From positions 13,020,742-13,084,741 of the forward strand of contig NC_135565.1 in assembly GCF_964340395.1 (NCBI RefSeq): a stretch of 64,000 nucleotides of DNA, written 5' to 3'. Below, piece after piece: positions 1 through 64,000 of the stretch (position 1 is its first letter; each line of letters opens with the position of its first letter). Source of the stretch: Glandiceps talaboti (taxonomy: Eukaryota; Hemichordata; Enteropneusta; Spengelidae). The notes under the pieces were generated by a model. That model was given only the letters and a program-made list of their open reading frames with translations, searched no databases and was not told the origin of the DNA. The position numbers were made by a program, and so were the translations under genes.

Positions 1-725
1 ATGTAGCACATCCCTTATTGAGTTACCTCAACATTTAACGTTTACTTTGACCTCTTATATTAACATGTGGCACAAAAACAAAGTGTTAAAGCACTAATAA
101 ACTTGTGAAATGACACAAATAAATTAAGTTATTGTAATATCGAATTTAAATGTTCTTGAAGACCATATGTTATATTGTCAATGATTATAATGTAGTAAAT
201 GACGTTTCTCCTCGTCTATAGATTTAATTTGACCTCCATGGACAATGACAACGAAATTATACGGGCTAGTGTGGGAGTGTGCTGTATTTCCCTTTCCTGT
301 ATACCACTTGTTAGGGATATGCTTCTTAGCAAAATAAACAACGTTTTTGTTTTGCTATAAACAAGGACAAGTCCTCCTAAGGTTTGGGTATGGTACAATT
401 ACAATCTTAATTACATAATTACAGTGAAGACTCCGACCTTTTGTCTTCGAGTCATTTATTTGCATTATTGAATATTCTCAAAAGCAATTTCTCTCCGAAC
501 ATTTCAACTTATCCTACTATTATATATAAATGGAAATAACATGTGTAATATAGTATTTAAACTGGAAACAACGGACTAACAAACATGTGTTGAAGCATGT
601 TTGTAGCAAACCAAGTCATGTGTCATATTGATCTGTAAAATGGAAAGTTTCTGGACTAGATATGAGATAAAATGTTTGGACAAAACGCACTTTTTATCTT
701 ATTCTAATGTTGTTATTATACTTAC
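1..725. other. Intron of gene A (SRCR to the expected WSC exon)
   Basis: AT-rich non-coding sequence beyond the 3' splice donor of the second SRCR exon (GTAAGT just left of 726). No domain-like open frame is seen. It should be the intron leading to a WSC exon outside the window. Confidence 0.6.
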
Positions 726-2585
726 AATTACATCTCACCGTTGCTGCATTTCTAATGGTGCTCACTGGATCATGAATTGTATGTTGACAATCTGATAGGG
801 ATGTTTTATCTCCATTACAAGATATATCATGTATACGTTTCCTATCATCTCCGACAAGGGCATCTAACTCATAATGTCGCCACATTGCTCCTGGATATCC
901 TTTGATAGGTATATAATAGTACAAGGATTTCTTTATAGATAAGAGTCTCCAACGATATAGTTTAACATGTATGTTTTGTCGCTGCATGCATTAATCGTAC
1001 GCTAATAGTGTTAACGTTTGCTTGGTAATTGCCTTCTTCAGTTTTACCACTTTGTGTCATGTATCACGAAGATGATGAAATTTGGGGTATATAGCTATTT
1101 ATTTTTTCTAATGACCGACGAAGATTTCCATATACTATTCTAGATTCCAAGACAGGTCAGATAAGCAACTTTTTAAACAACAGCTATATAGTAATCAGTA
1201 TACACATAATATGCAATACTATATCCACAATATTGCCATTATGATTCAAGTCAATATGATCGTGTATCCAGTAGATATATAAATGTGAAAACGTGGTTAC
1301 TGTCGGTTATTTTCCGTAACTTCAATGAATATATTTTTTAGGCTGGATATTTTTGCAGTGTATGTAGTGGTCATGATTAGTCTATGGGAAAAGGTGTATG
1401 AGAAACGCTACGTGGATTGTCTCTTTTAGTACAAAATATATACCGTCCTCTGACGTTATTGTTACAATTAAACATCAATTTAAAATTATTAAAGTTTATT
1501 GATAAAATTTCCCCAAACCGATGCTTATGGAAAGAGCTTAAAATCTTTCAGTCAATGTATTTAGGTTTTAAGTACCTAGTTCTTTACAAGCAACTTCAGC
1601 TGCATTAAATCCCCATAAGTAGGGACCGATACCACTCACTATAGGTAGCCATCCACCGTGATCTTCAAAGAACATTTCAACCAAACCTCTGTATGGACTT
1701 TGTCCGGCTACCAATCGAACTGTCTTTACGGCATCTGAAAACGATTTTGTTATAGAAAGTCAGTAAATTTAAAAGTAGATGAGAATGGTTAGATACCAAA
1801 TATTTCGTAAAAATAGGTCACTTGTCCGAAATAAATCAAGTGCAAACGATCATTACGAGAGAGTAAACGGTTCAAACATTTGAGACAGTTCGTATTCCTA
1901 ATCTCAGTGATGCAAATTAAATACACCCATATACTGTAAAGATCATGCATCTCTCTCTCTCTCTCTCTCTCTCTCTCTCTCTCTCTCTCTCTCTCTCTCT
2001 CTCTCTCTCTCTCTCTCTCTCTCTCTCTCTCTCTCTCTCTCTCTCTCTCCCCACCATGCACATACATACATACATACATACATACATACATACATACATA
2101 CAGACCGTTATTGTTACTGATTATACGAGCTTTCACGTCATGTTATATATATGCCGTTATAACTTTATAAGTAATAAATCTTGAAACAGACAGTTTTATT
2201 TCGTCTGGTAAACTTAACAGCACCGTTTCTGTTAATGACGCGAAGGTGTAGGGAAGCATACAATGTTAATACACAGTTCTGTGTTTCATATGCAACTGAA
2301 TGTGGGCTAGGGTCAAACCTGTATAGTCCGTCTTTATGGCTATGTAACCATACCAGTACTACACAGTGTCCTGTACAGTACAACATTTACAGTACAACAT
2401 AAAAGGGTTCATACCAGATTAATACATTGACCGCGACTGGTATGTGTGAAAGACGGTGTAGATAAAAGACTTGTTGTGAGACGGTGTTGATTTGTATTTA
2501 TACTGTCCCTACCTGATGAGGTCATTTCAATCTCCAGAATGCATCGTAGTAATAATAGGATAACAAATATATCTTGACAGGTCAT
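726..2585 (-). CDS. Receptor gene A, 5' part (signal peptide + SRCR-like domain), runs off the left edge
   Basis: Three exons are visible: 2513-2585 (signal peptide, begins [16 protein letters not shown]), 1576-1734 and 726-899 (two halves of a scavenger-receptor cysteine-rich domain). All have GT/AG borders and join in phase 1. The first SRCR half carries TVRLV and AEVACKEL; the second carries GYPGAMW and [13 protein letters not shown] and ends VRCN. The domain has four cysteines, fewer than the six to eight usual for SRCR, so it is a divergent member. By comparison with gene B the next exon (WSC) should lie left of base 1. Gene B is the closest relative: the signal peptide differs at few positions and intron sequence is also conserved. 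SRCR domains generally bind proteins or microbial polyanions; the ligand here is unknown. A DR1-like site lies 97 bp upstream of the ATG. Confidence 0.8.
1951..2101. repeat. (CT)n then (CATA)n microsatellite in gene A intron 1
   Basis: About 100 bp of pure CT (1951-2050) followed by about 40 bp of CATA repeats. Gene B has a longer CT tract in the same intron. Open frames over this stretch are repeat artefacts. Confidence 0.97.
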
Positions 2586-63400: not shown

Positions 63401-64000
63401 TCTCCTCTAAAAGACCAGATGGTGGTTGGCAGTCTGGGATTACATCTACAGTAATATAAAGTTGGTATCACCCATACAAAGGCATATATTAGACATGATT
63501 CACGGAATGTATCTTATCAAGGAATATGGTTATTGTTGTTTAATTAATAACAAAAGGTTAAAGCTCATATGCAATGTTTGGTTTTTCAGTATATACCATA
63601 TCAAAAATGAAAATATACATCGTATCACGATTATTGGGATGATTGTGAAATAATGTACCTGCATGTGTATAAAAAGTTGATATCATCATGAGTATGATAA
63701 TAAATTCTTACATTATAGGAACTACTTCTGAAAAGTCAAATATTGTTAATGACCCGGACGACTCGTATACTATAATGTCTTATGTTCATTCCAAAACATG
63801 TGACAGATTCCAAGGTTGACAGATATGACGTTTGTAAATTGACGTAAAACTCTTCAAAGAATCTGTAAACACAAAGATAAAAGACTCACCTGAAATTTCC
63901 AAAGCAAACATCCCTCTACCACCAGCTGTATCACTGTTTGTTTGGAATTGTAAGTGAACAACATTTGAACAGGATGTTGTTTTGTTATTACTGAATTTTA
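59795..64000 (-). CDS. Receptor gene F, 3' part: CUB-CCP x3-stalk-TM-ITIM/ITAM-like tail
   Basis: Exons: 63890 to beyond 64000 (end of CUB, TSCSNVVHLQF...GRGMFALEIS); 63251-63445, 62223-62393 and 61721-61891 three CCP domains; 61033-61068 stalk (EAEQETVVALST); 60590-60674 transmembrane (VVAGSVTGVVVLIVVV...FRR); 59795-60425 tail. All borders are GT/AG and phase 1 up to the transmembrane exon. Signal peptide, SRCR and WSC exons should lie right of 64000. F looks like the best-preserved model of the family's 3' half, with all CCP exons and the full tail. Gene E is its sister copy. Confidence 0.8.
61325..61390. repeat. (CAA)n microsatellite
   Basis: About 60 bp of CAA/CGA units between the third CCP and stalk exons of gene F. 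Confidence 0.92.

Follow-up and report, generated by a model that had tools for sequence, protein, structure and literature searches.

We describe a 64 000-nucleotide stretch of the Glandiceps talaboti genome (hereafter the window; C18:13020742-13084741, placed by genome search of the 590-Mb assembly), in which six paralogous receptor genes, A to F, lie head to tail on the minus strand. They are part of an array of 18 same-strand genes occupying about 0.32 Mb and built on a common ectodomain of SRCR, WSC, CUB and CCP (sushi) domains. Two kinds of cytoplasmic tail follow these ectodomains, each gene with the less common kind has its closest ectodomain relative among genes with the other, and DNA similarity within such pairs is lost past the last CCPs, before the tail is reached. 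We favor, as the likely though by no means assured reading, a family of paired activating and inhibitory receptors, tandemly encoded type I membrane proteins among which tails would have been exchanged.

Results

Two classes of tail

We name the array genes by position: Z lies at 13.009 Mb, A to F in the window, G at 13.098 Mb, and others run from g13139 to g13321. Tails were scanned with strict patterns for the immunoreceptor tyrosine-based activation motif (ITAM; Y..[IL].{6,12}Y..[IL]) and the corresponding inhibitory motif (ITIM; [ILVS].Y..[ILV]). We read 21 tails: 12 from Glandiceps, five from Ptychodera and one from amphioxus, plus those of g13306, g13266 and g13276. Outside this count stand P0002, P0019 and P0020 (no transmembrane-tail region seen), G (broken) and g13190, g13205 and the SRCR-only g13216, for which no tail was found in the fetched array.

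The ITAM class comprises A, D, g13321 and g13276 of Glandiceps and P0017 of Ptychodera, each with one or two consensus ITAMs. Chance occurrence of the ITAM and ITIM motifs is countered by tail shuffles: two ITAMs are present in A (0.01 expected; p = 0.0003), in D (0.01 expected; 0/4000 shuffles) and in P0017 (0.02 expected; 0/4000 shuffles), and one each in g13321 (p = 0.0073) and g13276 (p = 0.0063), these p-values standing per tail, uncorrected over the 21 tails. Homology links the A tail to that of D (54% over 133 amino acids) and the g13276 tail to that of g13321 (42% over 114 amino acids), which gives two or more sequence groups of ITAM tails. Five matches to the D tail were found genome-wide, all within the array: D itself, A, one at 13105k with a single stop codon, and two overlapping matches at 13119k. 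As read, the transmembrane helices of A, D, g13321, g13276 and P0017 contain no internal charge, and g13276 and g13266 both have phase-compatible transmembrane exons ahead of their tails.

The majority tail carries the motif N-x-x-Y-E-S (NxxYES) with scattered ITIM and half-ITAM sites. Of 19 tails compared, 16 contain the broader pattern N..Y[ED]S (A, D and g13321 are the exceptions; the P0017 version is NQSYDS); the pattern is also present in the g13266 tail and absent from that of g13276. The g13306 tail stands out with seven strict ITIMs (0.96 expected; 0/2000 shuffles) and seven copies of N..YES; among the other NxxYES partners of ITAM genes, B, Z and P0015 have two strict ITIMs each (p = 0.0585 for P0015). 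The tail of the amphioxus relative P0008 has no ITAM and no strict ITIM but does have NAFYES, from which we take NxxYES to be the kind that probably arose first. The sequence-only reading of the window had called the tails ITIM/ITAM-like and diversified; their tyrosine motifs are indeed diversified, but a single label does not serve for two distinct kinds found on closely similar ectodomains.

Pairing and similarity breakpoints

We built a tree of 24 ectodomains, five labelled ITAM, 17 NxxYES and two unlabelled; the rows labelled NxxYES include G, on its broken tail, and the amphioxus row. The ITAM label changes five times, every change being forced by well-supported branches, and among 200 bootstrap trees none required only a single change (5-95% range, 5-5). 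Shuffled labels give a mean of 4.6 changes against the five observed, a scatter that is about random, so the tree shows that tail kind does not cluster with ectodomain ancestry rather than that it is scattered to excess. A groups with B and Z, D with C, g13276 with g13266, g13321 with g13306, and P0017 with P0015; the nearest ectodomain of every ITAM gene (5/5) belongs to an NxxYES gene. Ectodomain identities are 84% for A-Z, 81% for A-B, 78% for D-C, 64% for g13276-g13266, 99.7% for g13321-g13306 and 69% for P0017-P0015.

The closest pair differs at one of 303 SRCR-WSC-CUB codons and two of 120 CCP codons, with no synonymous differences, yet g13306 has a tail of 755 amino acids with its seven ITIMs and g13321 one of 114 amino acids with YAAL-x7-YQSL. 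Their DNA is 97% alike over 6.7 kb, the similarity ending about 270 bp past the transmembrane exon. A and Z are 79-88% alike across introns and exons from signal peptide to CCP2, and thereafter in the transmembrane exon alone; the tail DNA of A resembles instead that of D (72% over 470 bp). C and D are likewise alike as far as CCP2 and not beyond. Within the A/Z and C/D pairs, then, likeness gives out past the last CCPs and ahead of the tail, and judged by these similarities A is of Z/B type as far as CCP2 and of D type in its tail.

When the fetched array was searched with nine tails, a single tail kind was found behind each assigned gene. At one place (C18:13116799-13119954) an NxxYES tail is separated by ~2 kb from a transmembrane exon whose ITAM tail is broken (13117k/13119k); these adjoin no assigned ectodomain.

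Gene architecture

The genes encode, in order, a signal peptide, SRCR, WSC, CUB, zero to three CCPs, a transmembrane helix and a tyrosine-rich tail. Exons for the SRCR half-domains, WSC, CUB and CCP were found by six-frame profile searches, all on the minus strand; signal-peptide and transmembrane exons were located by paralogue comparison and a hydrophobicity scan. SRCR occupies two exons, WSC, CUB and each CCP a single one, and the tail a single exon after the transmembrane exon, with a linker exon between CCPs and transmembrane exon in some genes. Splice phases are consistent with this chain: the signal peptide exon ends in phase 1, both SRCR exons, WSC, CUB and CCPs are all 1-1, and the transmembrane exon runs from 1 to 2, followed by the tail. 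SRCR, WSC, CUB and Sushi all score above Pfam cut-offs on the spliced models (the short in-window CUB end of F is below), and neither kringle nor immunoglobulin (Ig) domains match the six models at E up to 0.1. The chain is visible through to the tail in four of the six window genes, the window edges cutting A and F. The sequence-only reading had proposed just this: six head-to-tail paralogues, one exon per domain or half-domain, this domain order, loss of domains in some copies, and a likeness to Kremen without its kringle. All of it agrees with the spliced models, domain loss being seen in D, which has no usable CCP exon, and in B, whose second CCP exon is disrupted.

A public protein, P0001 (LOC144448457 isoform X2), equals our gene C model exactly from signal peptide to CCP2 (453 amino acids) and again from transmembrane helix to tail (210 amino acids); this isoform lacks CCP3 and has a 21-residue linker. 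Its AlphaFold model has a mean predicted local distance difference test score of 65.6, with ectodomain blocks mostly at 70-91 and the tail below 50. Kremen-1 takes Foldseek ranks 1-4 (E 1.8e-19 to 2.7e-17) and also gives the top sequence hit across WSC-CUB (residues 130-285).

Group A SRCR proteins are defined by an SRCR domain on two exons and six conserved cysteines. The two-exon trait is present in the array genes. By eye we count four SRCR cysteines in A, B, C and E, five in D, and six in P0003 and amphioxus P0008; relative to the latter two, one SRCR disulfide seems to have been lost in these five window genes (697-51590).

The array and its relatives

A genome-wide WSC search gave at least 81 matches at E up to 0.001. 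Nineteen, 18 of them whole, fall within 13.009-13.321 Mb of C18, all on its minus strand, and in all 18 array genes at least SRCR exon b and the CUB exon adjoin the WSC exon. The tandem duplication suggested for the window thus extends to a larger array. We annotated 256 kb of C18 using profiles made from peptides of the window and of databases; of the array, 24 kb (13244742-13260741, 13290742-13294741 and 13310742-13314741) fall outside those 256 kb. A decayed extra WSC exon (C18:13085803-13086045) lies beside the intact one of gene F, and two strong WSC exons (C18:14.71-14.73 Mb) lie on the same strand 1.4 Mb off the array.

The spliced gene B model found homologues among proteins of Glandiceps talaboti and Ptychodera flava; the WSC exon alone found none as a protein query, probably because candidates had to be of similar length. 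Predicted proteins with the same SRCR-WSC-CUB-CCP architecture occur in Ptychodera flava and elsewhere on the same Glandiceps contig, where they are uncharacterised or named after other families, and an amphioxus relative named KREMEN2 (P0008; a cluster of 11 sequences) has SRCR-WSC-CUB-transmembrane without CCP.

Genes of the window

All features below are on the minus strand, in window coordinates unless C18 is given. Only the 5' part of gene A is in the window (726..2585): signal peptide 2585-2513 and SRCR exons 1734-1576 and 899-726; its WSC, CUB, CCP1-2, transmembrane and ITAM tail exons follow at C18:13020251-13015850. Gene B (6110..13142) has signal peptide 13142-13070, SRCR 11895-11737 and 11235-11062, WSC 10574-10281, CUB 10004-9684, CCP1 9121-8930, transmembrane 7029-6951 and an NxxYES/ITIM tail at 6698-6110. 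The tail motifs (6113..6511) are ITIM IIYNEI at 6494-6511, NIAYES (with ITIM IAYESV) at 6245-6262 and a terminal YATLE at 6113-6127. Its disrupted second CCP exon is at 8092..8244, and a possible linker at 7954-7874 has weak similarity (E 15) and compatible splice sites; a local duplication of ~290 bp (7473-7982) takes in this possible exon.

Gene C (LOC144448457; 14727..25030) has signal peptide 25030-24961, SRCR 23252-23100 and 21812-21636, WSC 20715-20431, CUB 19825-19520, CCP1 18843-18652, CCP2 18154-17978, CCP3 at about 16892-16722, a linker at about 16428-16366, transmembrane 15897-15819 and a shortened tail at 15279-14727 with NIVYES at 14784-14801. This tail ends early relative to those of B, E and F, and past its end a C-terminal tail remnant (YATL) persists in another frame (14642-14758). 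Gene D (27507..35706) has signal peptide 35706-35637, SRCR 34099-33947 (weak donor) and 33364-33191, WSC 32072-31788, CUB 31343-31026, transmembrane 28568-28490 and an ITAM tail at 27900-27507, whose two ITAMs (27513..27797) are YHTI-x9-YMHL at 27747-27797 and YQSL-x9-YMHL at 27513-27563. Remains of its CCP1 and CCP2 exons (29625..30360) have an in-frame stop and a shifted frame; the end of the CUB exon is present in a partial second copy (30709-30816).

Gene E (38442..56837) has SRCR 51589-51425 and 51260-51087, WSC 50322-50029, CUB 41705-41388, CCP1 40940-40746, transmembrane 39088-39004 and an NxxYES tail at 38814-38442; its signal peptide (56837-56750) is our weakest assignment, at about 8 bits to the corresponding exon of C. 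The WSC-CUB intron of E holds a Ty3/Gypsy-type element (41917-49750) with zinc-knuckle, reverse transcriptase/RNase H and integrase frames recognized by domain; its near-identical terminal stretches lie about 7.1 kb apart, and it is probably a young insertion. A DUF3504 frame in the first intron (53026-54633), with weak QRICH1 and phage-integrase domain matches, is one we take to be Crypton-like. The 3' part of gene F (59795..63998) has the CUB end 63998-63890, CCP1 63445-63251, CCP2 62399-62223, CCP3 at about 61891-61721, a linker at about 61068-61033, transmembrane 60674-60590 and an NxxYES/ITIM tail at 60425-59795; database protein P0016 agrees with it from the end of CUB to CCP2 and again from transmembrane exon to tail. 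Long simple repeats forming open repetitive frames occur at 6945-7460, 12117-12458, 15443-15822 and 58180-58500.

Sequence constraint

Ratios of nonsynonymous to synonymous substitution rates (dN/dS) show that the CUB exons are constrained (0.15-0.23 in A/B/Z). The SRCR exons of the same genes give 1.40-1.79, not significantly above 1 (p 0.23-0.35), and we reject positive selection on them on that ground. Nonsynonymous to synonymous counts, compared between SRCR and CUB for five of the 12 dN/dS pairs, differ in three A/B/Z comparisons (p 0.0013-0.0039, comparisons non-independent) and show no difference in C-D (p 0.59) or E-F (p 0.087). Freer amino-acid change in SRCR than in CUB, as estimated for A/B/Z, would fit an outer recognition surface.

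Discussion

We envisage that the SRCR-WSC-CUB-CCP ectodomain binds a surface or microbial ligand. Tails with NxxYES and ITIM or half-ITAM sites would be inhibitory or adaptor-binding, recruiting phosphatases or adaptors once phosphorylated, and ITAM tails would be activating, presumably via a recruited Syk-type kinase, giving opposite outputs. A candidate tandem pair of Syk-like SH2 exons is present in the genome (C7:25183649-25184056 and 25185244-25185402, found with a human query). Syk/Zap70 homologues with ITAM-binding SH2 domains are reported only from invertebrates having CARD-CC/Bcl10, hemichordates included (PMC5978004). Since the ectodomain exons are all of phase 1-1 and the transmembrane and tail exons are separate, an existing ectodomain can gain another tail; duplication or recombination in the introns ahead of the tail may do this, and the outcome would be activating/inhibitory pairs alike or identical in specificity, a layout known from vertebrate paired receptors. 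Immune use of the array is probable, and allorecognition is a further candidate role. We are evenly divided over the larger proposal that the array is self-renewing, with repeated conversion between NxxYES/ITIM and ITAM tails on a non-Ig scaffold and with specificity kept.

Several observations weigh against the paired-receptor reading. Strict ITIMs are absent from the tails of C, H, g13266, P0004 and P0006, and the ITAM p-values are per tail. The two tail kinds overlap by pattern: one ITAM-spaced pair lies inside each of the NxxYES tails P0015 (p = 0.0125) and P0007 (13284; p = 0.02), and NQSYDS occurs in the ITAM-class P0017. By BLAST (E up to 0.01) the P0017 tail is similar to neither the A/D tails nor that of g13321, and the Ptychodera pairing may therefore be independent of that in Glandiceps. 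The g13306/g13321 pair might in part reflect haplotype assembly, and choice of tail by alternative splicing is possible at 13117k/13119k. Decay is also evident: the CCP exons of D are dead, the array ITAM tails at 13105k and 13119k are broken, and so is the F-like NxxYES tail of G.

Such decay is what would be expected if the pairs were a by-product of tandem duplication, in which the ends of the duplicated blocks fell by chance between CCP and tail, many copies are decaying and pairing is unselected. The disrupted exons or tails of B, C, D, G, 13105k and 13119k, the intronic block boundary of g13306/g13321 and the near-random scatter of the ITAM label all agree with this. We nevertheless hold it to be quite unlikely, given the intact homologous ITAM tails in A/D and in g13276/g13321, the pairing in a second species and the constrained CUB exons of A/B/Z.

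Two other explanations give the tails a different function. SRCR, CUB and CCP domains are found in scavenger receptors, and the array could encode endocytic scavenger or adhesion receptors whose YxxPhi and NxxY motifs are clathrin-adaptor sorting signals, the tails differing in trafficking. The abundance of Yxx[ILV] (seven in A against 0.96 expected; seven in P0005 against 2.14) and the prevalence of N..Y[ED]S would suit this explanation, which we regard as unlikely in view of the narrowly spaced YxxL/I-x(7-9)-YxxL/I in the ITAM tails of two species and the about seven-fold enrichment of strict ITIMs in g13306. The top-ranking structural and WSC-CUB sequence matches to Kremen-1, and the KREMEN2 name of the amphioxus relative, raise instead the possibility of an expanded set of Kremen-like co-receptors acting in Wnt or another developmental pathway, with tails that diverged without opposite functions. 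This we find very doubtful: a kringle match is absent, the array is tandem with broken copies, tail change is recurrent, and Kremen is not known to have such tyrosine-motif tails.

On the larger proposal above, pairing in Ptychodera would represent either inheritance from the common ancestor of the two families or a second origin, and the array would be a hemichordate counterpart of KIR/LILR. What is known of paired receptors comes mainly from vertebrate leukocytes, where they are built on Ig or lectin domains. Near-identical ectodomains with ITAM versus multi-ITIM tails, found in a non-chordate phylum on another scaffold, would point to repeated evolution of this logic, would offer a defined system for studying how tail exchange is generated and maintained, and would allow asking what such receptors see in animals lacking vertebrate-type adaptive immunity.

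The window had been proposed to hold an undescribed system. We found no description of SRCR-WSC-CUB-CCP with such tails in the open PMC literature (subscription papers and bioRxiv being outside this scope), and the hemichordate genome paper does not use 'SRCR' in its main text (PMC11175523); the architecture itself, however, is not confined to the window, recurring in Ptychodera, on the same contig and, without CCP, in amphioxus. Because the literature search gave no description of the architecture with such tails, we rate the array genes as a variant of paired receptors and not as members of the Kremen or fester families. Kremen-1/2 share WSC followed by CUB and a type I membrane topology (PMC3927609), and are the best fold match (PDB 5fws-5fww), but have a kringle instead of SRCR and lack CCP (PMC3927609). 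Amphioxus KREMEN2 (P0008) is 31% identical to gene E and has, like the array genes, SRCR-WSC-CUB-transmembrane, with NAFYES in its tail. Sea urchin and sponge have expanded SRCR superfamilies, and in sea urchin the domains counted alongside SRCR include WSC, CUB and Sushi; ITAM, ITIM and hemichordate do not occur in the main text of that survey (PMC10855680).

Invertebrate cases with ITIM or ITAM tails come from Botryllus and Hydractinia (PMC12065747). Botryllus fester resembles the array as an invertebrate deuterostome system with sushi domains and tails bearing ITIM, hemITAM or YxxI/L/V-core motifs; it shows gene-content variation and, at some loci, splicing-based motif switching (PMC12065747). 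Fester co-receptors combine Ig with sushi, SRCR being unmentioned in the main text, and have a hemITAM or core motif (PMC12065747), whereas the array has sushi with no Ig match and double ITAMs. In functional terms these co-receptors are the closest comparison we know for the array. In the vertebrate KIR, LILR, SIRP and FcR-like families, too, genes are clustered and closely similar ectodomains bear opposite ITIM or activating tails. They also undergo birth and death and tail exchange. Their ectodomains are Ig or lectin where those of the array are SRCR-WSC-CUB-CCP, and their activating members mostly rely on an adaptor and a charged transmembrane residue, whereas the array receptors carry the ITAM in their own tail.

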